Shown here in pieces: positions 5,952-34,327 of a stretch of DNA of 34,327 nt (within the stretch, counting starts at the first letter, position 1; every line of letters starts with the position of its first letter). The translations under genes and the position numbers were made by a program. Source of the stretch: a virus; the IMG/VR virus record IMGVR_UViG_3300047157_000155, positions 1-34,327 of that record, one strand, 5' to 3'. The notes under the pieces were generated by a model, which did no database searches, was not told where the DNA came from, and saw only the letters and a list, made by a program, of their open reading frames with translations.

Positions 5952-6518
5952 TTATGGGTTGCCTGTGCGTGGGGCAGTCCAGATGGCGAGATTGACCAGC
6001 GTATTGGCCGCAGTCGGACTAAATGGCAAATGCCTCTTGTCAGCTTCTTCTTTCAGCATTCCCACTATTTTTTGTTTATTGTTGGTGGCCCATTTCTTTC
6101 CCATCCGATCAATGTCCCTTGCCTTTTGATTACACCCACAACTTTTAGTAGCCTTAACGCCCACTCGACTCAGGATCTTTTTTATTTGACTGCCCACCCC
6201 AGCAGGAGGCTCAGGTTGAGGTGTAACAGGCATTTTGCATTGACCCTCTGGAGGGCTTGGGTTGTCGTTCACAATGGCCCTGCCGCAGTTACTGCACTTA
6301 TGGATGTATTGACCCATCATTGGCTGTGTAACCCACACATGGTTCGGGGCAAGTCGATATTTAGCAGCAAGGTTTTTGTAAACTTCGTCGTCGATTCGCA
6401 ACGATATGACCTGATCTCCCCTGAGTACAGGAGTACCCGAAGCCAGTAGTTCATCGAGGTAGCCAGGTGTTCGGTAAGGGGCAGCTGCAACGGCAGCATC
6501 ATACGAAATCACTTTCAT
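5952..6518 (-). CDS. Conserved phage protein with CxxC and CGC cysteine motifs (188 aa)
   Basis: The ATG at 6518 has AAAGG six bases upstream. Residues 30-75 look folded. Cysteines then sit at 75 and 78 (KCSNCGR), 94, and 127 and 129 (SCGC), so metal binding is possible. After a Pro-rich linker, the C-terminal half (about residues 107-165: IKKILSRVGV, SCGCNQKARDIDRMG, KIVGMLKEEADKRHLPF) matches my memory of a small module in many environmental phage and planctomycete-linked proteins, with a Cys-Gly-Cys, a following MDxWG-like stretch and a WLxEEAxxRGLPF-like helix. Here the usual Trp-Gly is replaced by RMG. Function is unknown. It sits between the Cys-rich protein and the disordered series. 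Confidence 0.75.
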   Translation of the reverse strand: MKVISYDAAVAAAPYRTPGYLDELLASGTPVLRGDQVISLRIDDEVYKNLAAKYRLAPNHVWVTQPMMGQYIHKCSNCGRAIVNDNPSPPEGQCKMPVTPQPEPPAGVGSQIKKILSRVGVKATKSCGCNQKARDIDRMGKKWATNNKQKIVGMLKEEADKRHLPFSPTAANTLVNLAIWTAPRTGNP

Positions 6519-6530
6519 TGGAAACCTTTC

Positions 6531-8345
6531 TCACGGAGGGGGAGCAAAAGAAATTGAACGGTTAGGATCTGGGCAGCCCGCAGTTAGGTCGTCCGGGCAC
6601 TCAGTTACGTTGGGGCAGAAAACCCCTGTGCTTTCTGTGCATTCGTCCTCACTATTCACAGTTTTGCATTTGTCAGCAGGCTTGTCGTTTACCCACGTAG
6701 AACCAACCAATTCATCGTATGCAGACTGAACTTCTTCTTGCGTTAATGGCTGCCCGCCTTTTTCTGCACCCGGATAAATCGGACTTAATGTACTTGCCTT
6801 ACAGTTTTCTTCGGTCGATGTTCCTGCTGGCTGTGGTTCTCCCCATCCCGGCTCGCGATAAAACAATTCGTAACACCATCCTTCAGATATATCATCGGGA
6901 TTGTTTGGATACACATACCACCAAGCCCCATCCGTGTAAGGGGCAGCATCATTCGCTGCCCCTTCTTCAGCGGCTTCTGCACTTTCGTAATCACAATTCC
7001 CCGTTAGACCGTCATACCACCTGTAGCAACTTCCCAACCCATCGGCTCTGTACAGGCAAACGCCTGGAGGTGTGGATGGACAAGCGGACAAGCAAGTCTC
7101 GTTAGCATAAAAAGTTCCGCCAGCCTCAACGCACGGACCCTCTTGGTTAAGCGGTGCGTCTTCATGACAGTGAGCAGGGATATCACCATCAGGAAAACAA
7201 CAAGCACCCGTAGCAGCACAATCAACAGGAGCATTATCAACGCACTCAGTCTCAGTGGCATACGTGCCGTCAGGTTTTTGGACACACTCGTCTGTCGCAA
7301 TACATCCCCATTTTTCAGGGCACTTATCTATACAGTCTTGTAATGTCTTATGGGGTCCAGCAGGGTCTAGTTCGCAGTCGTACGCACCGTCAGTCTCGAC
7401 ACAGTTGTAATCGCAGTCCTCGCAGTCTGGGTAGTCAGACGGGTCAAAGCCTAAGACCCTGTCACACTCAACTTCATACAACTGGCCTTCAACCGGATCT
7501 TCGGGAAAGTCGAGTGACTCAGGATACACTTCGCACGCTGGTGTGCCGGCAGTTCGTTCACCCTCTGGGTGGCACGGAAGGATTAACTCCCATTCGCCCT
7601 GACAATACCTCCAAGTTTCAATCAGCCCTGCACAACATGTACCCCACTGTCCGCCATCAAGACCGCCCTCGCCAGCCATGTAAACACATGCATCATCGAC
7701 GCAATCAGGACATGGTTTCTGATCTGGCAGGATAATCTCTTCACAGATCTTGCAAGCGTCCTTGCATGTCGTGTCGTACTGGTACGGTCCACTAATCGCA
7801 TTGTCTGGTGCCCCCGTATTGTCCATGACGCATTCGTATTCATAGTCATCGGTGTTATTGTATTTAACAACACACCACCACTGATCACCACACCTGGCAT
7901 AGCAAGCGTCTTGTGATCCGTATGGACCTGAAAGATACGACTCACTGGGGTCTTGTAATTCACATTCTGGCTGACTACCAGATTGCGGTGTTCCTTTATC
8001 AACACAGAACCACATCTGCTTGCAGGCTTCATTGCAAGTGATAGTGTCCGGGTAAGGTCCAGACAAGTAACCTTCGTCAAAATAGTCTGTACAGTAGTAT
8101 CCAATTGCTTTGTCGTAGTAACAGTAAACACTTCCGATGCCGCACTGCTGCTCGCACTCAGACTGTGACCCATGCTCACTGAGCATCTGATCAACTTCAA
8201 AGTCGTACTCTTGTGCACACCGATAGCTACCGTCACTGCTAAGAAGACAGTACCATTTCTTGGGATCAAATCCACAACAGCAGGCAATGTTGGTGGCGAA
8301 CTGGCCGGCAACTTTTAAAAATTTCCCGCCAAGTTGTATGAACAC
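6531..8345 (-). CDS. Cysteine-rich repeat protein with GACC-type module (604 aa)
   Basis: I choose the GTG at 8345 because GGAGG stands seven bases before it. The longer reading from a TTG at 8429 overlaps the upstream gene and lacks a site. By my count the 604 residues hold about 55 Cys. At least four modules of roughly 35-45 residues follow the pattern [WV]xC, 9-13 residues, C, then usually SGPY, then CxxxC (about residues 31-68, 74-108, 112-152, 157-198). A diverged copy lies near 314-342. Near residues 378-422 there is a TGACCFPDG...EAGGTFY...C...C segment like the GACC repeats of planctomycete secreted proteins. The N-terminus has a CCC cluster and no clear signal peptide. It is probably a disulfide-rich virion or tail surface protein. 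The function is unknown. Confidence 0.85.
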   Translation of the reverse strand: MFIQLGGKFLKVAGQFATNIACCCGFDPKKWYCLLSSDGSYRCAQEYDFEVDQMLSEHGSQSECEQQCGIGSVYCYYDKAIGYYCTDYFDEGYLSGPYPDTITCNEACKQMWFCVDKGTPQSGSQPECELQDPSESYLSGPYGSQDACYARCGDQWWCVVKYNNTDDYEYECVMDNTGAPDNAISGPYQYDTTCKDACKICEEIILPDQKPCPDCVDDACVYMAGEGGLDGGQWGTCCAGLIETWRYCQGEWELILPCHPEGERTAGTPACEVYPESLDFPEDPVEGQLYEVECDRVLGFDPSDYPDCEDCDYNCVETDGAYDCELDPAGPHKTLQDCIDKCPEKWGCIATDECVQKPDGTYATETECVDNAPVDCAATGACCFPDGDIPAHCHEDAPLNQEGPCVEAGGTFYANETCLSACPSTPPGVCLYRADGLGSCYRWYDGLTGNCDYESAEAAEEGAANDAAPYTDGAWWYVYPNNPDDISEGWCYELFYREPGWGEPQPAGTSTEENCKASTLSPIYPGAEKGGQPLTQEEVQSAYDELVGSTWVNDKPADKCKTVNSEDECTESTGVFCPNVTECPDDLTAGCPDPNRSISFAPPP

Positions 8346-8400: not shown

Positions 8401-8946
8401 CTATCCCAATCCACCAATGCCTGGTCCAAGTGTCCCTTCTGGTATTAATTCAGAACTACTCTCTTCGTCCGTAGGGCACTCTGTCGTGTTCTGCAGGAGA
8501 CGCAGGATGTACTCAATGGCATTTTTATTGGTATTAATCTGTGAACGATTAGCACGCACAGCGGCCTCGAGATTCGACATGCGGGCTTGAAGTGTTTGGA
8601 TCGCTGCCCAAAGAGCAGACGGGTCAAACGGCTCGGGGGGGCTGTTCGGGGGAGGGCCATCAAGTGGAGGATCTACACGGTCTGGGTCGTCAATGGTATT
8701 GGGACGAAACGGACGACGCTCACCATCTGAGATCTCGAAGTTTCCCAAACTCTGGGTTGTTGACTTCATGTCTTCCGGTGTAACCAGTCGAGATGTTTGC
8801 GGAACGTATTCAAACGAAACAGGCCCACGATGCTGGAGAGTAGCAGCACAATTAGCAATACTCTGCACAATCGCATCTGCCGCATTAGGTGGGATCCCAC
8901 TCTGCTGCAGTGCAGTGTTAAGCTGATTCGATTGAGAAGTAAACAT
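8401..8946 (-). CDS. Tail-module protein with C-terminal coiled coil (181 aa)
   Basis: The ATG at 8946 overlaps the stop of the nozzle-like gene (TAATG), which suggests translational coupling. The N-terminal ~65 residues look helical and compact. A Pro/Asp-rich linker follows at about 85-108. Residues about 110-155 (from ALWAAIQTLQARMSNLEAAV on) show clear heptads of Leu, Met and Ile and should form a coiled coil, probably a trimer. The last residues are Gly-rich. Small coiled-coil proteins in this position often attach or cap tail parts, but I recognise no specific family. It is followed by a 55-base gap and then the Cys-rich gene. Confidence 0.75.
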   Translation of the reverse strand: MFTSQSNQLNTALQQSGIPPNAADAIVQSIANCAATLQHRGPVSFEYVPQTSRLVTPEDMKSTTQSLGNFEISDGERRPFRPNTIDDPDRVDPPLDGPPPNSPPEPFDPSALWAAIQTLQARMSNLEAAVRANRSQINTNKNAIEYILRLLQNTTECPTDEESSSELIPEGTLGPGIGGLG

Positions 8947-11900
8947 TACTCAACGACCCCCATAACATCGATGTTATGAATAATGGGCTTTGCGTCTTCC
9001 TTGCGTTCAGTCCTCAGTTCAACCGCTACATGTCGATCATTGCCCTTGATTGCAGGGTCAGTAACACCTTGCATGCGAGCAGTTGCTACCCCATTCTGAA
9101 GTTGTGGTGGCAGATTCTTTTCGTATGTATTAACGACTGCCAACGGTGTGCTTTCCGTATAAACAACACCATCGCCTCTTTCTCTCTCTATTACATTGTT
9201 TCGTGCTGTTGGATTGTTGTTGTAGTAGCACGCAAGGGCTATATCTGTCGGCTCCTTTGTTGGCGAATACAAGAAGTTTACGTCTCTTGTTGGCTCTTCG
9301 TTTAGCTTGTACTCCATGTTTCCAGTCTTGGCGGAACATGGTATTGGGATCCTCCCGACATCCACATTGCATTTAAGAATCGCTGTTTTCTCTGGCCCCA
9401 GAGGTGATTCTTCCACTTCAGCGTAGGCGTCTGGATCGTAGTGATATCCCGTACTGCGAATGAAGACTTTGTGCACCCGACCACGCAAGTCCAACGATGC
9501 CTCAAGGACGGCTCCATCACCACCAGGAACGGTAATCGTTGGTGGATAGATGTAGCCCTCACCCGGATCTTCAATAGTCACCGATGTGATGCCGTAGTAA
9601 CAGAGGTCTGTGTCGCTACCGTCTGTACGGAATAGGGATGTTGCATTACTTCCGTATACCGTAATCATCTCTCCAGTCACATCACGTATGGCAGCTGCCC
9701 CTACTAGAGGCAGTGGGTGACGGAACTCTTGCCAACTCTTGGATAGCGTTGAGTACACAAGCTGACGTGTGGGCCAATGTCCTTCACCATCACCCTTGTA
9801 ACGAACACTTACTTTAATTGTGTCATTCGAGTGGTCGCTTTGCACCGAGAACCATGTGCTCTTAGCCCAGTCAATCTTCTTGGTGAATAGGCTGGCTATA
9901 GCTGTGGATATTGGATCAACCGTGCCTCCAGAATCTGCCATCCAGACGCCTTCTGTATCAAGTGCATATAGGTTGCCGTTCATCTGGTCCCAACATCTTT
10001 GGTTGATACAACCTCGATACGCTGCCACTTGGATGTTTGCATCGATGATTGGCTGGCTAACGTAACTCAGCCTGTGGTATTCGTGAGACATTAAGACCGC
10101 AAGATGAGAACCAAAGGGAGCAAGTGCAGTGATGTGGTCTTGGCTCTTGTCATTGTTTTGAAGAACAAGCTGGTTAATTTCAGGCATGCTCTCCGGCTCA
10201 TCGACCTCTGAATAGTAGAGAGTGGATGGCTCTTTCAGGCTTGTGTCCGCTCCCACCCACACGCGATCCTGAAACATGCATGCTACTGCTTTATCTTTCA
10301 TCGGCACTTCAAAACGATTTGCATTCAGTTCTCCGTTGCTGAGAAGGATCGGCATTGCCAGCATCTCGGCTCTGTCAGGAGAAGCCAGTTCTTCGTCCGT
10401 GAGGTCATCCTCTTTGATTGCACCGCATGCTACGGTTGCAACACGATATAGCGTTGTTGCTTGATTGGCGGATGACCTCCATAACTCAACCTTTAATGGT
10501 CTGCCGTCTTCCCGCTGCGGATCCACTGGTGCCGTCCACGCGATAGATCCACAGCCAATCTGACCATCAGACGTTTGAAATGCATTGGCGTTAAACTCAA
10601 CGACGGGGCTAAGGTTAGAAGGTATTGGCCCTCCCCTGTCTTCTGGTGTGTCGTCTACAAAACGTGTGTAACACTGGTATATACCACGCAGGTGAGGACG
10701 ACTAATGACATTGACTTCTGCTCCACCGGAAATAATTGTGGCATCTGGTGGGCTTGTGTATAGACCTCCATTGATAACTCTTGTGTCCGTTACCTTTCCT
10801 TGCCCTACCGTTTCATTCCCTGCACTTCTGACTGTTTGATCTGTTGCAATGTTTGCCTGAACCACACCCCCTACGCCACTGTCTGTGGATAACTCAATCA
10901 GTGGTTGCCCTACATAACCAATACCAGGAGTTACTACGTTTATACTTTTGATTGGGTACTGACTAGACCCTTGATAGTTATTAGCAGGGCTGTTTGGATT
11001 GGAGCCTGTGTAAAGTTCGACAACCATTGCCTTTGTGCCCGATGCATTCGGCTGGCTGGAATCAGGGATTGAGTATGCACCTAATGGATATGATCCAAGA
11101 ACTACAACGACTGGTTTATTGTTGTCTGTCTTCCAGCCTGCCCCTTTGTTGGTCACTGCTACGGATTGCAGGTTGAGTGGATAGTGTCTGGAGTATTGCC
11201 CAGCCGATTCGGTGACAGATGTAAAGGTGAACTGAACTTTAATGGGCGTGTATAAGATGGGCTGCCAGCCGTCTGCTCCTTCACCAGCTAATCCCGCCTT
11301 GTCCCAACTCTTGATGAGGTTGTACTCGTAAGTAAGAAGTTCGCCGGCCTTTCTTACAAACGTCCACGTATTCCCCATTTTATCTACACTCGACCATGTA
11401 GAAGGATCGACATACGCACTACCGGAAGATTGCACAAGACCATCCGAACGTATGCACGGTAATGCTGGTGCTGATACATTCTGCTGCTGCACAGAGTATG
11501 TTTCTACACGCCCGTCGTCATCAGCTGGATCCACCGCCCCATTGCCCAGTACAACCTCAAGTTGTGCACCCTGACCGTAACTGTCCTGCACTTCTGCAGT
11601 GGGTGGGACTGTATATCCACGACCACCATTCAGTATCTTCACGCCACCCAAAGCCGATCCAAACAAGTACGTGTTATATTCAAACTCTTTCTGGGTATCG
11701 CCAGTGATAACTAATTGCGGTGGAAACGAGTATTGAGTTCCTCCCTCAACTACATCCACTCGTGTTACATAGAACTTGGCTTCGGCTTTACGAGTGACAG
11801 AAAATGGAAGACTGCGACCGCTGCTAGATGTAGGAGGCTCAATGCCGGCATCGTATACTTCTTCGCCGGTTGTCAAATCGATGCGTATTGGTTTGACATC

Positions 11901-11987
11901 GTTGCCCTGCCACCCATAAGCATATCGGTGTGGGCCAAGAGCCACAGTAATCGGGTGCTCTGTACTGTACTGGTATTGATTCGACAC
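8946..11987 (-). CDS. Tail nozzle-like (tail tubular protein B-like) protein with GxGYxxPP repeats (1013 aa)
   Basis: The 1013-residue protein starts at a GTG overlapping the upstream TAG (TAGTG). The central part (about residues 440-790) has features I associate with podovirus nozzle or T7 gp12-like beta-propeller proteins: a CMFQDRVWVGA strand, then STLYYSEVDEPESMPEIN, DHITALAPFGSHLAVLMSHEYHRLSY, and GNLYALDTEGVWMAD. Around this core are at least five short repeats of the type GxGY(xx)PP followed by a beta strand, in the N-terminal third and again after the core. The product is probably a tail-tip or nozzle component in the virion. It lies directly after the adaptor-like gene and a short cistron resembling the missing nozzle N-terminus. 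The family assignment is by pattern only. Confidence 0.7.
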   Translation of the reverse strand: MSNQYQYSTEHPITVALGPHRYAYGWQGNDVKPIRIDLTTGEEVYDAGIEPPTSSSGRSLPFSVTRKAEAKFYVTRVDVVEGGTQYSFPPQLVITGDTQKEFEYNTYLFGSALGGVKILNGGRGYTVPPTAEVQDSYGQGAQLEVVLGNGAVDPADDDGRVETYSVQQQNVSAPALPCIRSDGLVQSSGSAYVDPSTWSSVDKMGNTWTFVRKAGELLTYEYNLIKSWDKAGLAGEGADGWQPILYTPIKVQFTFTSVTESAGQYSRHYPLNLQSVAVTNKGAGWKTDNNKPVVVVLGSYPLGAYSIPDSSQPNASGTKAMVVELYTGSNPNSPANNYQGSSQYPIKSINVVTPGIGYVGQPLIELSTDSGVGGVVQANIATDQTVRSAGNETVGQGKVTDTRVINGGLYTSPPDATIISGGAEVNVISRPHLRGIYQCYTRFVDDTPEDRGGPIPSNLSPVVEFNANAFQTSDGQIGCGSIAWTAPVDPQREDGRPLKVELWRSSANQATTLYRVATVACGAIKEDDLTDEELASPDRAEMLAMPILLSNGELNANRFEVPMKDKAVACMFQDRVWVGADTSLKEPSTLYYSEVDEPESMPEINQLVLQNNDKSQDHITALAPFGSHLAVLMSHEYHRLSYVSQPIIDANIQVAAYRGCINQRCWDQMNGNLYALDTEGVWMADSGGTVDPISTAIASLFTKKIDWAKSTWFSVQSDHSNDTIKVSVRYKGDGEGHWPTRQLVYSTLSKSWQEFRHPLPLVGAAAIRDVTGEMITVYGSNATSLFRTDGSDTDLCYYGITSVTIEDPGEGYIYPPTITVPGGDGAVLEASLDLRGRVHKVFIRSTGYHYDPDAYAEVEESPLGPEKTAILKCNVDVGRIPIPCSAKTGNMEYKLNEEPTRDVNFLYSPTKEPTDIALACYYNNNPTARNNVIERERGDGVVYTESTPLAVVNTYEKNLPPQLQNGVATARMQGVTDPAIKGNDRHVAVELRTERKEDAKPIIHNIDVMGVVE

Positions 11988-21741: not shown

Positions 21742-22278
21742 TCATTTACGCCGTCTTTTCCATTTAGGTATGTATTTGTCTTTTACCTGCTCTTCTGCAG
21801 CCCTTTGAGTGAGGCCAGGATGTTCGGCTCTTTCCTGTTTTGTCAGTTCCCGTAATGCTCGGGCACTGATTTCTTTGCGTTTTTGCTTTGCCTTTATAGG
21901 GGGTGTGTAATTAATCTGACCTTCCAGCTGCAACTTTCGGCGTTTTGCAGTGGTTATCACCTCATCCCGACTCCCAACCCATGCTCCAGGATCCCTATAT
22001 TGGCGTTTATCAGCCAAACCACCCATATAAAAACGCCCCGATGTGGCAATGCCTGCTGCTTTAGCTTCGCGTTCTGCGACTGCCCGTTGATCGGGAAGCA
22101 TTGTGTCACCCCCCTCCGTCATGCGACCTTCCATAAAAGCACGGTCTGAACCCTTGTAAACAGGAGCCTGACCAAGCGTCACCATCTCGGCAAACTTGTC
22201 AGTACAGCCATTCAAGAGGCATTCCTTGTAATGCTTAATAGCTTGATTCCCTAAATCAGTTACGCTTTGCGGTATCAT
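21742..22278 (-). CDS. Conserved phage protein of unknown function (178 aa)
   Basis: The 178-residue protein starts at an ATG at 22278 that overlaps the end of the endonuclease gene. Its middle (AGIATSGRFYMGGLADKRQY, DPGAWVGSRDEV, KRRKLQLEG) is one I have seen in uncultured phages as a conserved segment of unknown role. The C-terminal 60 residues are Lys/Arg-rich with helical character and could bind nucleic acid or the capsid interior. It follows the portal and endonuclease, so a virion or packaging role is possible but not shown. Confidence 0.7.
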   Translation of the reverse strand: MIPQSVTDLGNQAIKHYKECLLNGCTDKFAEMVTLGQAPVYKGSDRAFMEGRMTEGGDTMLPDQRAVAEREAKAAGIATSGRFYMGGLADKRQYRDPGAWVGSRDEVITTAKRRKLQLEGQINYTPPIKAKQKRKEISARALRELTKQERAEHPGLTQRAAEEQVKDKYIPKWKRRRK

Positions 22279-22765
22279 CTAAATCTTCCCTCCGTAAAAG
22301 TTCTGCAACGTGGCTTTTGTTCCAGTTGCGTATGTACTCCAATGCGTTCTCCAACTTGAATTCACTGTTCTGAAACATACCGATGGCTGTATTGCAGTTC
22401 TGGCAAAGCAATCCTCTGTTCTCTCCAGTCTCATGACAGTGATCGACAGATAGTCTCTTACGGCAGCATTCACCACAGATTTGACACGTATAGTTACACG
22501 CTTCCAGTGCTGCGTCATATTGTTCAGGTGATATGCCATAACGACTTCGGATCTTGTAGGCTCGGTTGTAAACCTTGATCTTTTCCTTTTCCCTTTTCCT
22601 GCGTAACACCAAGTACTCGAGGTGAGCAGCCCAGCGTTCCGGCGTGCAATCTCTTTTGCAACGTGCAGTCCCACATGGCTTAATGCCATGCTTACGCAAC
22701 TCCGCAACAGCAGTGTCAAATTTGCTACGCATGTATTGTGTTGTGGATCCCGCAGCGGGCCTCAC
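22256..22765 (-). CDS. Endonuclease VII-like HNH nuclease (169 aa)
   Basis: The protein has the compact recombination endonuclease VII (T4 gp49 family, HNH class) core. It shows YGISPEQYDAAL, then a zinc pair C94xxC97, a catalytic-type LSVDHCH (D108, H109, H111), RGLLCQNC with C121 and C124, and the closing helix of about residues 126-145 (IGMFQNSEF, LENALEYI). Phage members cleave branched DNA or act as homing-type nucleases. The GTG at 22765 overlaps the portal stop (GTGA). An ATG at 22732 is an alternative. Residues 1-60 are a basic helical region with extra Cys (31, 36, 40). Lying between portal and structural genes, it could resolve DNA branches for packaging or be a mobile nuclease. The family call is confident. 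The role is not. Confidence 0.9.
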   Translation of the reverse strand: MRPAAGSTTQYMRSKFDTAVAELRKHGIKPCGTARCKRDCTPERWAAHLEYLVLRRKREKEKIKVYNRAYKIRSRYGISPEQYDAALEACNYTCQICGECCRKRLSVDHCHETGENRGLLCQNCNTAIGMFQNSEFKLENALEYIRNWNKSHVAELLRREDLDDTAKRN

Positions 22766-25202: not shown

Positions 25203-26841
25203 CTATAGATCCTCCAAGACTTACACCGGCAGGTTCAAAAACGCATTGGCTGCCGGTGCGAGCCTTCTGCTTTTTCTCGTAGGCGGCTACGAGTGGATGT
25301 ACGGGTTTTTCAATCACGACTTCTTTAGGTCTGTGATATCTAGGTTCTGAGGCCACAAGATATTCAACACATTGCACAGCATGACACTCACCCTTTGTGT
25401 TGGGCTGGTCAGTAATGATCCTTGTCCCATTAACCATGTTTGTTTTCTTGCGGTACTTCTTGAGTTCCCGTTCGAGGTTGGGACATGCGTTTCTGAGAAA
25501 CCGCAGCTTTGGTGTGCCCTCTGGGCGAATCGTAAGTGCAGCCATAACCTGACCAACGCGAGCCGCGACGTTGTCATAACCCAATTGGAAAGACCAGCCA
25601 GTCTGAGCACTGCGTATGTCATGTTCTCGAAATGCATCCGTGTATTGAGTACCGACTTGCTTTCCACTACCCATCTCATGAATAGCGGATCCATGCTTAT
25701 CTATTATCATCCCCTGTAATTGCTGTACTCCCAACTTGATCTTCACTTTTTCTGCAAAACTCCTTGCCGTTGCCTGTCTCACGTAGACTTCGTCGTATAC
25801 CAAGAGCATTGATTCATCAGGTGGAACTGCCATAAAGACGCCCGCAGCAACCTGATAGCCAGGATCGACAGCAAGATAGCGAGTCCAATCCATAGGAACC
25901 TGCAAATGAGGCAGATCTTCACGGCTAAAACCGTGAGAATACATGTTGAAACTAGGGTACACAGACAACGAATCGAAGGTGAATTCACCCTCTGCACGCT
26001 GACGAACAACATCAGCACCCTGAGCAGACCACCTCTCGATCATCTTGGTCTTTTCTTTTGGATCGATGTGGACGTTGTCCAGGAATCTAAACCTGAACTG
26101 CTCTATGTTCTTTTCGCCTTCTTTCTTTTCTTCTGCCTCTGCTCGTTCGCTTAGGTTGAGTAGCCATTCCGCATTCGAGTGCGGCATAGCGGCAACCCAT
26201 AGCCGGCCCTTCCTGTCTGCCAATCTGGCTTGCAGTTCACCGATCCAAATGTCGCTTTGTATTTCTTCATCGATTAAGCATGCATCTAAGGAGAATCCTT
26301 GTGGCACTACCCCGTCCGAACTGAACGCCATAATCTTGTAGCCATTCACTAACTCGCAATATGAAAAGTAATTAGCACTTTTCATCTGCCAACTCATCTT
26401 CTTGATGAATCTCTTTGGTATCAGTGCGGGTGCCGGCTTCTTTTCTTTTTCCCTGTGTCCGTCGTTTTCTGGATCGTATGCCCTCCACTGCCCTGTGGTG
26501 TCATCTTTAATGATGTCGAATGCACCAGGCTTAAAAAGATACGGATAGACAACCTGCCCCACATGTGCCCAATTTCTGCCAACCACCGCTGCAACGCCGT
26601 CTTTTTTGGGGAACTTGTTGTAAGGATCTTGTCCTGTCACAGCACGAGCAAACTCAACAAAAGCAGCACAAGATTTACCAGAACGGTTACCACCAAGAAT
26701 GAGACGTTCAGAAGCCATGCTCGCATGAAACGGCTCCTGATACGGAGCAGCCTTATACAGCCTGAGTCCTTCCGTTTTACGAGAAGCTAACTCAGTTGTT
26801 AGATCCATCAACTCATTACGTTTATGCTGCGATATCCCCAT
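25189..26841 (-). CDS. terL: Terminase large subunit (550 aa)
   Basis: This is the packaging motor ATPase and nuclease. A Walker A motif GGNRSGKS lies at residues 50-57, and Walker B ACLIDEE at about 187-193. A coupling-type segment AAMPHSNAEWL follows near 217-227. The C-terminal RNase H-like nuclease begins near 320, with LAVDPG (Asp 326) and GMIIDKHG (Asp 381) as two of the metal-binding acidic residues. The 550-residue length is normal. The ATG at 26841 lies 20 bases inside the end of the HNH gene and has only a weak AGGTG site, so expression may depend on coupling. It would cut concatemers and pump DNA through the portal encoded just downstream. Confidence 0.96.
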   Translation of the reverse strand: MGISQHKRNELMDLTTELASRKTEGLRLYKAAPYQEPFHASMASERLILGGNRSGKSCAAFVEFARAVTGQDPYNKFPKKDGVAAVVGRNWAHVGQVVYPYLFKPGAFDIIKDDTTGQWRAYDPENDGHREKEKKPAPALIPKRFIKKMSWQMKSANYFSYCELVNGYKIMAFSSDGVVPQGFSLDACLIDEEIQSDIWIGELQARLADRKGRLWVAAMPHSNAEWLLNLSERAEAEEKKEGEKNIEQFRFRFLDNVHIDPKEKTKMIERWSAQGADVVRQRAEGEFTFDSLSVYPSFNMYSHGFSREDLPHLQVPMDWTRYLAVDPGYQVAAGVFMAVPPDESMLLVYDEVYVRQATARSFAEKVKIKLGVQQLQGMIIDKHGSAIHEMGSGKQVGTQYTDAFREHDIRSAQTGWSFQLGYDNVAARVGQVMAALTIRPEGTPKLRFLRNACPNLERELKKYRKKTNMVNGTRIITDQPNTKGECHAVQCVEYLVASEPRYHRPKEVVIEKPVHPLVAAYEKKQKARTGSQCVFEPAGVSLGGSIDVSY

Positions 26842-27541
26842 CTACTCGTGCACCTTTTGAAAGGTTTTCTTTTGCCCACAGCGGTTGATAATTTGTGTAA
26901 TGGGCAGCCTGAAGGTACTGCTCTCTCACGGTCAGATCAAATGACGCAAGTGGTTGAATGTGGTCTAAGTGCCATCCTTTATGCGACCAATTGGCCCATG
27001 TCATTCCTGGTGAGAACTTTCCCTCGATGTACACACGAAATTCTTCAAGAGTGCAACCAAGATCACGCACGCCCGATCCAGTCTTGGCACCATTTCTTAA
27101 TGCCTTGAGTAAACGGTTCCGAAGGCGATGGGATAGCTTGACTTGCAGTACATCCTTTGTGCGATTGAAATAATCTCGCTTTTGAGCACGAACTCGTTCG
27201 GGATTGTTTTTTCTCCACCGATTGCTTGCGTTTTGACACTGCTTCGTGTTGGATTGATAGTGCTCTTTTCGATAATTCTTTTTATATTCTGCGTTAGCCC
27301 GATACCACTTTGCGTCTTTTTCTTTTAATTTGTCAGCGTTTTCGGCGTGATATTTTGCATTGTATTTTTCAGTCGTTGCACGATACCTCTTACGTTGCAA
27401 TTTCCTGCACTCACGGCATCGAACGCAAAGGTCATCTGGTTTTGATTTGTCTTTATTAAAGCTGCCAACAAGTAAAACCTGTTTGCAATCAAAACATTCC
27501 TTGCTTTTTCCAGATCCAGCGTTAGCATTGCTTTTAGCCAT
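26822..27541 (-). CDS. HNH endonuclease with N-terminal zinc ribbon (239 aa)
   Basis: From the ATG at 27541 (AAGGAG six bases upstream) the 239-residue protein has a zinc ribbon C16xxC19, C39, C42xxC45, a long Lys/Arg/Tyr-rich helical linker, and an HNH core with HLDHIQPLASFDL (D183, H184) followed by HYTNYQPLWAKENLSKGAR (H204, N207, N216). This matches the free-standing HNH nucleases common in cyanophage-like genomes. The same frame is open further up to an ATG at 27640 that also has GGAGG at six bases, which would give 272 residues, so the start is uncertain. It lies between the putative small terminase and the large terminase, a common place for homing endonucleases. Its last bases overlap the terminase start. 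Confidence 0.88.
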   Translation of the reverse strand: MAKSNANAGSGKSKECFDCKQVLLVGSFNKDKSKPDDLCVRCRECRKLQRKRYRATTEKYNAKYHAENADKLKEKDAKWYRANAEYKKNYRKEHYQSNTKQCQNASNRWRKNNPERVRAQKRDYFNRTKDVLQVKLSHRLRNRLLKALRNGAKTGSGVRDLGCTLEEFRVYIEGKFSPGMTWANWSHKGWHLDHIQPLASFDLTVREQYLQAAHYTNYQPLWAKENLSKGARVDGDIAA

Positions 27542-27662
27542 GACGACTCCTTCATAGTCAGATTGGTTAGAGATGCCGTCTGGAGTACCATTCCAGTCGG
27601 CTTCTCGCATTTTACGGCAATCTAACTGTCCGTCAAACATCCGGTTCCTCCAAACCTGGCTG

Positions 27663-28226
27663 TTACTCGTCGTCCTCGAAGGTTTCCTCAAAGGCTTCCG
27701 ACAAGCGATTAGATATGGCTTTCTCAGATAGCTGAAAGTCTTGTGCGGCTTCTCTCAGCTTTTCATCGAGGGCTTCTTCTAACTCATCCTCGTTCCACAA
27801 CTCGAGTGCCTTCCGGTCGCCGCCCACTTCCGTATTGCTTTGCACAAGTCGAGTGAGCATTTCCAGTGCCTTTGAACGCATTGCACCACCAGGTTTACTC
27901 TCAAACAGTTGCTTCATAAGTAAAGCTGATAATCCGTTCACGCCCCCAACCAGATCCATGCAACTCTCGAGCAACTCGGCACTGTGCGGTATTTTGCTTC
28001 CGCCCTTCCTGGCCTCCTTGCAGTACACATCCAAGATCTGCTCTTCCGTCTTTTGCATGACGGCCTGCCTGCGTTCGTTCTCCTCCGCCTTCTTTCGGCT
28101 ACGACGTTTAGCGACACAATGAACGCAGACATGACGTGCCTTCTTGAAAACCGGAAAATTGACTTCTGTGAACTCAAACTCCTGAGCACAATCCCGGCAC
28201 ATGCGTTTTTCTTTTTCGTCACTCAT
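27663..28226 (-). CDS. Zinc-finger protein in small-terminase position (187 aa)
   Basis: I choose the ATG at 28226 (MSDEKEKRM). A GTG at 28253 would lie inside the preceding gene. Near residues 9-40 are CRDC and CVHC pairs about 22 residues apart, a zinc ribbon, followed by a Lys/Arg helix. The C-terminal ~130 residues are all helical and acidic (LLESCMDLVGGVNGLSALLM, then an Asp/Glu-rich end EETFEDDE). Small terminases are often helical DNA-binding oligomers just upstream of terL, so position and a possible N-terminal DNA-binding element fit. No helix-turn-helix is obvious. The finger resembles the one on the adjacent HNH protein. The call is provisional. Confidence 0.55.
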   Translation of the reverse strand: MSDEKEKRMCRDCAQEFEFTEVNFPVFKKARHVCVHCVAKRRSRKKAEENERRQAVMQKTEEQILDVYCKEARKGGSKIPHSAELLESCMDLVGGVNGLSALLMKQLFESKPGGAMRSKALEMLTRLVQSNTEVGGDRKALELWNEDELEEALDEKLREAAQDFQLSEKAISNRLSEAFEETFEDDE

Positions 28227-28230
28227 GGCA

Positions 28231-28737
28231 TTACCTGTTACCGTTGGATCCACCTATGCGTTGGCCGTTACGATCAAATAGATTTATGCTAGGTGCGTTG
28301 GCATAAAGCCCTTGAAGAGGATTATCTGTGTTCCCCATACCGTTGAAGTTCGGTATTCTGCTAGCATCTGCCGTGTACTTTGTTGCATCGTTCTGTAACT
28401 CTGCGGCGTAGCGACGATCTGCGGAATCCATCATCATCTTATTCTCGGGAAGGTCCATCTGACGATCTTCTCTCATCAGATTCTCTTGACGGTTCGCAGT
28501 CTCTGACAGTCGCAACGCCTGTTGCATGGTGTTGCCGGCTTCTTGGGATGCCATGCGACCACGATCATGACCCACGCCCATTCCGACGTTCTGGCCGGGT
28601 TGCACCGAATGCCCTGCCTGACCATCTACTCGTGCGTTGTTGGCTGCGTCTTGGTAATGGTCTGCTCGTGCGGCTTCGTTGTATGCGAGTTGTCGCAAAG
28701 GGCTTTCGCTGTAGTCTCTGTAATTTCCATATCCCAT
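28231..28737 (-). CDS. Unassigned Asn/Gln/Met-rich protein (168 aa)
   Basis: The ATG at 28737 follows a GGAG site. The 168 residues are hydrophilic, rich in Asn, Gln, Arg, Ala and Met, without Cys. They look like helical stretches (about 45-110) ending in a flexible tail (NLFDRNGQRIGG). I recognise no family. Being just before the packaging genes, it may be a small virion or packaging accessory protein. Confidence 0.68.
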   Translation of the reverse strand: MGYGNYRDYSESPLRQLAYNEAARADHYQDAANNARVDGQAGHSVQPGQNVGMGVGHDRGRMASQEAGNTMQQALRLSETANRQENLMREDRQMDLPENKMMMDSADRRYAAELQNDATKYTADASRIPNFNGMGNTDNPLQGLYANAPSINLFDRNGQRIGGSNGNR

Positions 28738-29897: not shown

Positions 29898-30308
29898 TTA
29901 ATCGTTTGCAACCTTTTCGAGCACACTCTCAAGTTTGCAGTTTGCTTCTTCTCGAAGTTCGTCTGCTCTGTCGTGACCGCGATCACAACGTCGTTCAACC
30001 CTTCGATCAATGCGATTAGCCTTACCCTTTAACATGACAACCTGTGCAGCTTCAAAAGCAAGACGTGCTCGCTCTATCTTCTGACGAACAGTAGGTTCCG
30101 AGTCAGGATAAAACCGACCACCCGGTGCATACTTCCGATGCGTCTCTTCTTCCTCACAAGGATCTTCCTTCTGACGAATAGGACCACGCTTCACTGGGGC
30201 TTTTTCTGCAGCTGTTACTGAACGACCGGCCTTGCTGTTATGGCAGTCAGAAGCCCCCATAGTGCAAGGAACAATCAAGCAAGCAACAACTAAAAGAAAA
30301 CGATACAT
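29898..30308 (-). CDS. Exported Cys-containing charged protein (136 aa)
   Basis: I take the ATG at 30308 (MYRFLLVVACLIVPCTMGAS), the second of two close ATGs, since GGAG is then at workable spacing. The first 20 residues are a signal peptide, with likely cleavage after a Gly-Ala-Ser. A Cys three residues into the mature part (SDC) and one at VPC could suggest lipidation, but no canonical lipobox is visible. The mature part is very charged and helical (VRQKIERARLAFEAAQ) with further Cys near residues 51, 109 and 126. It could be a periplasmic or spanin-like lysis protein, or a virion-associated exported protein. This is not established. The intrinsic terminator follows. Confidence 0.7.
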   Translation of the reverse strand: MYRFLLVVACLIVPCTMGASDCHNSKAGRSVTAAEKAPVKRGPIRQKEDPCEEEETHRKYAPGGRFYPDSEPTVRQKIERARLAFEAAQVVMLKGKANRIDRRVERRCDRGHDRADELREEANCKLESVLEKVAND

Positions 30309-30326
30309 TGTCATACTCCGTAAAAG

Positions 30327-33693: not shown

Positions 33694-34018
33694 TATTCAC
33701 CTCCTGGTCATTGGGGATACACTTCTGGTTCGTCAATCCTTCTCGGATAAGTATGACTGCCATTTCTTCTGCGAATTCTGTAACAGACGTTTCTGATAGC
33801 TGCCAGCAAAACGCATGCAGCGACTCGTGTAGCGTGATTTCCAATCGACGTTTTTCACTGACTTTTTGCTGAAGACGAATAACTCTTTCTTCATTGTCAG
33901 TGTCGCCATCATGTGTGGGTATTAACGTGTTGTAGAACTTCCACGTTTTGCCGCCAATCTCGTACTCACGTCCCTGCTCTAATTGTTTCACAGGTTTCTT
34001 TTTGAGCCAACTAAGCAT
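33686..34018 (-). CDS. Minimal HExxH metallopeptidase-like protein (110 aa)
   Basis: The ATG at 34018 overlaps the upstream stop (TGATG). A GTG directly before it is possible but less likely. Residues 64-68 are HESLH, a HExxH zinc-binding motif inside a helix (ITLHESLHAFCWQL). Glu residues at 81, 84 and 85 in the next helix could give the third ligand. The N-terminal 45 residues are a small beta-containing part (YEIGGKTWKFY). From memory, phages encode short HEALHA-type proteins of this size, related to ImmA/IrrE or SprT-like peptidases, with unknown targets. Position just before the scaffold suggests a late or morphogenesis function, for example proteolysis during head maturation, but this is inference. 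Confidence 0.75.
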   Translation of the reverse strand: MLSWLKKKPVKQLEQGREYEIGGKTWKFYNTLIPTHDGDTDNEERVIRLQQKVSEKRRLEITLHESLHAFCWQLSETSVTEFAEEMAVILIREGLTNQKCIPNDQEVNNG

Positions 34019-34327
34019 CACCGGGAAAATACCTCTGTGGCGTATTCGTGACCATTGGCTGCACGAACGATTCCTACACCGACTTTTCTCCAGCTACTGC
34101 CCATTCGGTTACGTCGATGCCCACTGGAATTATGCCACATTCGGTCAAGAGTTTTGGCAGTGCCGCTACTGTGATAGGCCACATTCTCGGCATACGGACC
34201 TCCGCTATGGTACATCCGTCGAACCTTTGCCTGATGCAAACTCCACTTTCGAGCAAATGCCATTAGCTTTTGATCCACAATCAATGGACGCAAACCAGAA
34301 GACCGGCGACGGGCGTTCAACAAATCG
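34018..34327 (-). CDS. CAP (SCP/PR1-like) domain protein, 5' end outside the window
   Basis: The frame stays open to the right edge and the first codons read DLLNARRRSSGL, so the real start lies outside. The fragment (about 103 residues) is a CAP domain: LNxxRRxxGLxPL, MYHSGGPYAENVAY with His 39 and Glu 46, a Trp and SSGHRRN with His 69, then KVGVGIV and GHEYATEVFS with Glu 97 (numbers from the second Leu-encoding TTG codon). These are the His/Glu residues that form the CAP cavity. Bacterial and phage CAP proteins are usually secreted or surface-associated. Whether a signal peptide is present cannot be seen. It ends in a TGATG overlap with the next gene. Confidence 0.82.
   Translation of the reverse strand, partial: DLLNARRRSSGLRPLIVDQKLMAFARKWSLHQAKVRRMYHSGGPYAENVAYHSSGTAKTLDRMWHNSSGHRRNRMGSSWRKVGVGIVRAANGHEYATEVFSR

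Follow-up and report, generated by a model that had tools for sequence, protein, structure and literature searches.

Phage-encoded glycosylation of virion proteins (capsid, tail tube) has been reported in mycobacteriophages (PMC12619734), and the Planctomycetota, mostly the Phycisphaerae, have GACC repeat proteins built on a GACC-x-PDG...C...GG-T-[FY]...C module. We describe here an uncultivated phage locus that encodes a Cys-rich modular protein, the candidate, in which the cysteine order of the GACC module recurs. Searches of the open-access literature found nothing on Cys-rich phage tail proteins or on planctomycete GACC repeats, and no isolated phages of Planctomycetota came up in the papers searched there. 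With about even confidence, we read the candidate as a virion-associated protein that serves display or adsorption at the distal tail of a short-tailed phage from an uncultivated lineage, and the gene that follows it as a dedicated helper.

The window, that is, the whole stretch of DNA analysed, is one entire IMG/VR virus record of 34,327 bp, and its capsid, terminase, portal, adaptor-like and nozzle/head-closure-like genes suggest, judging from gene content, that the source phage is short-tailed. The candidate gene (6531..8345, minus strand) starts with a GTG at 8345, has an AGGAGG 7 nt upstream, and encodes 604 aa of which exactly 55 are cysteine on recount, in agreement with the figure of about 55 first given. 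Cysteine makes up 9.1% of this protein and 0.96% of the other window proteins counted; at the rate of the rest of the proteome, such a number would be expected by chance with a probability of ~10^-34. The gene has a tail-nozzle-like gene on one side and, on the other, genes positioned like those for internal virion proteins. Its upstream neighbour (8401..8946, minus strand) keeps the same position in two related contigs, G015 and G412, and the tail-nozzle/head-closure-like virion gene beyond (8946..11987, minus strand; PHROG 460, E 4.7e-13) has homologues that keep this order in G015, G412 and G415. No match to the candidate was found in Pfam, PHROGs, NCBIfam or PDB. Searches of phage records by tblastn with the whole candidate, and of IMG/VR with its peptide patterns, returned nothing, as did like searches with the neighbour gene at 8946-11987; homologous loci were reached instead by way of degenerate DNA patterns for the motifs.

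Elsewhere in the window, and also on the minus strand, are a 138-aa ORF (29898-30314), possibly a lipoprotein or spanin, that has no Pfam match and begins like a signal peptide with Cys residues after it; a CAP/SCP-domain gene (34018-34326; PF00188, E 3e-9) that is open at the contig edge and adjoins virion genes; and three genes with endonuclease VII-type PHROG matches (22256-22765, 26822-27691 and 27663-28253), the third of them weak.

The candidate has three recognisable parts: an N-terminal motif, about six copies of a module that we call SGPY, and one GACC module. For each, the test profile left the candidate out, and 1000 shuffles in which every Cys position was held fixed served as decoys. 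A profile of mostly planctomycete repeats, built from the loci of a genome scan, matches the GACC module (residues 380-422; 7080..7208, minus strand) at E 8.9e-5; the candidate is the sole significant ORF in the window, and 0 of the 1000 Cys-fixed shuffles scored as well. Among the matches listed for the strict GACC pattern in the genome scan, 67 of 80 were planctomycete-named, mostly Phycisphaerae, so that the planctomycete-type label first attached to this segment stands and the segment is indeed similar to the planctomycete repeats, short and diverged though the sole copy is. Close to the C-terminus, 6573..6668 (minus strand) may be a second, degenerate GACC-like segment, its profile match being weak (5.5 bits) and not significant.

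Of the 78 stretches that the GACC pattern marked in viral contigs, many are real Cys-rich ORFs, and GACC modules are present in 63 ORFs of the fetched viral and prophage loci, duplicates included. Many viral GACC ORFs sit in tail or T4-like baseplate blocks; because the module is common there, the original prediction was wrong to call such a gene unusual in a tail block. Very large GACC-type Cys-rich ORFs, of up to 3,078 aa and 11.7% Cys, were seen in G003, G004, G006, G009, G011 and G012, in apparent T4-like baseplate blocks (identities judged by eye), and some such ORFs have collagen-like GPTGPTG stretches.

The SGPY module follows the pattern W/Y-x-C...C...GP[YH]-x5-C-x3-C. Scanning viral contigs with it gave arrays in G013 and G014, and G005, already found by the GACC scan, carries both SGPY and GACC modules. 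A profile made from these three contigs only matches the candidate at several places (best E 1.9e-4, 0 of 1000 decoys as good), covering a first block of four modules (residues 31-198; 7752..8255, minus strand), of which the first lacks GPY, and a fifth and sixth SGPY-type module (residues 313-342 and 346-376; 7218..7409, minus strand). The recurring [WV]xC...C...SGPY...CxxxC modules that had been noticed by eye are in this way recovered with other viral contigs alone. Single modules of the candidate score unequally, and four Cys are invariant across 16 SGPY modules; the five repeats of the candidate alone gave a profile too weak to use. Between the cysteines, aromatic and GP[YH] residues are conserved, which suggests that the modules fold and are not metallothionein-like sequence, and a predicted structure of three SGPY modules shows a hairpin plus helix at moderate confidence (pLDDT 75).

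Homology to Kunitz domains was considered because the [FY]-x5-C-x3-C spacing is identical. In bikunin (PDB 1bik) this stretch lies on a helix after a beta hairpin, as in the SGPY model, and 1bik was the sole chain listed in a second structural search with that model (Z 2.2, rmsd 8.9, 72 aligned). Homology was not accepted, there being no Pfam hit up to E 10 and an hhalign probability of 1.8%. SGPY is without the inhibitory loop of Kunitz domains, and we take its likeness to their C-terminal half as an analogy only.

The N-terminal segment (residues 1-24, VFIQLGGKFLKVAGQFATNIACCC; 8274..8345, minus strand) has the form GK[LIV]L-xxx-GK[LIV]A-xxxx-CCC, or more widely G[KQ]hh-xxx-G[KQ]hA-xxxx-CCC, which we call the GKL-CCC tag. 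When a profile of 22 distinct other viral N-termini was run against the six-frame window, the segment was found at E 3.9e-6, with 0 of 1000 decoys as good. The scan pattern, whose design took account of the candidate and G005, marked 30 viral stretches, all in frame in an ORF and nearly all near its first possible start. The median Cys content of the complete ORFs is 7.3%, and the bodies behind this shared N-terminus are widely different. A short query with the motif returned nothing from phage records, for which low-complexity masking is a possible cause. In several large-phage loci (L224, L225, L227, L228, L230, L233, L249 and L250) the GKL-CCC gene follows MMARPKK.../MKVKYKVGDKLEFELEG... 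genes, which are not obviously tail genes.

Gene order in relatives bears out the placement of the candidate in a tail/virion block. The 60-kb contig G015 runs from the nozzle gene through an 8401-like gene and a Cys-rich gene to a gene with CxCN (the domain of the candidate's downstream partner, described below), one unmatched gene, and then 5321-like and 4812-like genes; G412 has the nozzle gene, followed by an 8401-like gene, and ends with a GKL-CCC gene. The Cys-rich protein of G015 (L271), which has the same neighbours on both sides as the candidate with CxCN next, is a 466-aa ORF with one SGPY module detected, a GACC-like segment and a diverged N-terminus. The SGPY-array proteins of G005, G013 and G014 show the same four-Cys module arrays as the candidate and are encoded after tail genes, although these contigs are long-tailed by gene content, unlike the candidate's phage. 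In each of the six long-tailed contigs measured, the distance from the tape-measure gene, PHROG-supported in all six, to the Cys-rich gene beyond it is 1.2-2.0 kb; three further candidate tape measures had no PHROG support. The three kinds of element (SGPY array, GACC module, N-terminal motif) turn up again across dozens of contigs of uncultivated phages. Searched at whole-protein level, the GACC/SGPY contigs yielded no match to the candidate, so its relatedness to them is modular.

Most homologues lie in virion or tail contexts, in line with the original prediction, but not all of them do: in large-phage loci, some GKL-CCC genes have no recognisable tail gene next to them, which speaks against a tail role for all. 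Small modules rich in Cys are able to bind metals, and with those GKL-CCC genes in mind the candidate might be a non-virion protein, either released at lysis or intracellular, serving as a metal binder, a secreted effector or a late-operon accessory. We find this improbable, given that unrelated phages repeatedly have the gene behind a nozzle or tape-measure gene and that the aromatic and GP[YH] conservation suggests folding. From its gene position, the candidate may instead be part of the particle, as the display or adsorption reading would have it.

The partner gene directly downstream (5952..6518, minus strand; 188 aa) comprises an adaptor-like N-terminal part, an HKCSNCGRAIV knuckle and a C-terminal CxCN helical domain; neither this conserved gene nor the GKL-CCC motif had figured in the original prediction. 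The C-terminal domain is 45% identical over 88 aa (E 3e-24) to the gene after the GKL-CCC gene in L230, and the genes in that place in L224, L232 and L235 are likewise similar to the partner. The domain has the pattern G-x-G-T-x-[LI]-K-K...C-x-C-N...G-x-x-WC...helical C-terminus; in the alignment CxC is invariant and WC nearly so, the latter being changed to WA in the window copy. AF2 predicts a compact all-helical bundle (pLDDT ~95). Compared with the PDB, the partner model had no clear match to a solved structure, and in BFVD a single protein reached E<=0.001, an uncharacterised one from an uncultured Caudovirales phage, with no function attached.

A scan with the CxCN domain gave 39 viral loci. 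Where an upstream gene was present, it was of >=4% Cys in 15 of 25 cases, as against 16% of background ORFs (p ~1e-7), a contrast that is approximate in that the background includes spurious ORFs and conservative in that it includes the Cys-rich genes themselves; after near-duplicates were merged by eye the pairing stood at ~13 of 22. Two further loci with CxCN after a Cys-rich gene (L271 and L279) were missed by the simple ORF caller, and in L270 one ORF joins GACC modules and the CxCN domain. The remaining 10 of the 25 follow a gene that is not Cys-rich, and some GKL-CCC genes are without CxCN.

Two observations concern the partners more broadly. A DUF6171-like zinc-ribbon protein takes the place of CxCN after the GKL-CCC gene in L246 and L236, and an N-terminal part of the form R-C-x-x-RGYT-LDEV...DGD...HPAYP is common to partners with different C-terminal domains (L224, L230, L234, L246, L254 and L268).

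The modules occur in many combinations and partners vary, as with the zinc ribbon of L246, which would fit a history in which GACC, SGPY and GKL-CCC were spread by recombination among phage surface proteins as mobile domains with incidental neighbours. We hold such shuffling to be quite improbable as the explanation, for the order and orientation of the pair recur across phage sizes and tail types, well above background.

Neither the CxCN domain nor the other cassette proteins that were searched had a counterpart in 50,697 phage records, and searches for the major capsid protein, for the partner domain and for the Cys-rich protein of G014 turned up no isolated phage. Among Planctomycetota sampled evenly, CxCN was present in 1 of 392 genomes (E<=1e-5), and in the planctomycete class of that hit in 12 of 297 (E<=1e-3; 11 of the 12 below 1e-5), with 0 of 296 in Bacteroidota and 0 of 299 in Pseudomonadota (E<=1e-5). 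The planctomycete CxCN loci resemble prophage tail modules, one tape measure among them having a Pfam match (PF10145, E 6.8e-48), and the gene upstream of CxCN is Cys-rich in 4 of 9 (L306, L324, L326 and L327) and not in the other 5. Its occurrence in one planctomycete class at prophage-like tail modules makes CxCN a handle on phages of Planctomycetota. No glycosyltransferase was found by Pfam beside the candidate-partner pair (window genes scanned, near neighbours included), and the exact GKL-CCC DNA pattern had 0 occurrences among 297 planctomycete genomes; for these reasons a planctomycete host for the source phage is something that we only infer.

In L283 and L327 CxCN is fused to a family-2 glycosyltransferase (GT2); elsewhere, in viral contigs or planctomycete loci, it is followed by family-25 glycosyltransferases (GT25) or an HtrL_YibB protein, and in two planctomycete prophage-like loci (L320 and L321) GT25-sulfotransferase fusion genes come directly after it. 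These neighbours, together with the invariant CxC and the recurrence of one N-terminal motif before otherwise unrelated Cys-rich bodies that CxCN genes follow, raise the possibility that CxCN reads the GKL-CCC tag as a leader and brings glycosyl- or sulfotransferases, or a CxC redox activity, to Cys-rich clients. We regard this as unlikely yet a serious contender: CxCN is also found away from Cys-rich neighbours and GKL-CCC genes away from CxCN, and the window pair has no enzyme found beside it. Its phage-specific form, in which CxCN as adaptor would recruit those transferases or drive the disulfide folding and virion loading of tagged display proteins, we entertain just as tentatively; if true, it would be a new kind of post-translational virion-decoration pathway.

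Under our preferred reading, a display or adsorption protein at the distal tail, the SGPY and GACC modules would probably be disulfide-bonded once outside the reducing cytoplasm and would act in contact with the host surface. The GKL-CCC segment may dock the candidate to the tail or to its helper, and the CxCN helical domain may assist folding, virion loading or modification of the Cys-rich protein. Since CxCN is fused to or followed by glycosyltransferases in several relatives, sugar attachment would be the most likely modification there. Counting against this reading are the 10 of 25 viral and 5 of 9 planctomycete CxCN genes with no Cys-rich gene upstream, the loss of WC in the window CxCN, and the lack of any enzyme gene found beside the pair. 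Of the roles first proposed, adhesin or virion surface spacer is a plausible candidate, whereas immune-evasion factor or host mimic has no direct support.

The gene had also been singled out as undescribed, and the libraries and open-access papers searched contain no description of it. What appears to be new is a recurring cassette made up of the tag, a Cys-rich modular body and the partner domain, and tag and partner appear undescribed. The cassette links three previously unnamed elements, the SGPY module, the GKL-CCC tag and the CxCN domain, in short-tailed, long-tailed and large phages, and suggests that some part of the virus particle is built or decorated by a system not yet described. 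Should that part be the end of the particle that touches the host, the cassette would open host recognition in these phages to direct tests.

The reported virion glycosylation of mycobacteriophages makes the enzyme neighbours of CxCN meaningful. That system too uses phage glycosyltransferases, such as lie near virion genes in the candidate's relatives, but the text consulted on it (PMC12619734) includes no CxCN-like adaptor or Cys-rich client, and the candidate-partner pair differs from it in having no glycosylation enzyme found alongside. Compared with the GACC proteins of Planctomycetota, the candidate shows no signal peptide on inspection and carries the module as a single copy, joined to SGPY modules and a phage-type N-terminus and set within a virion block.
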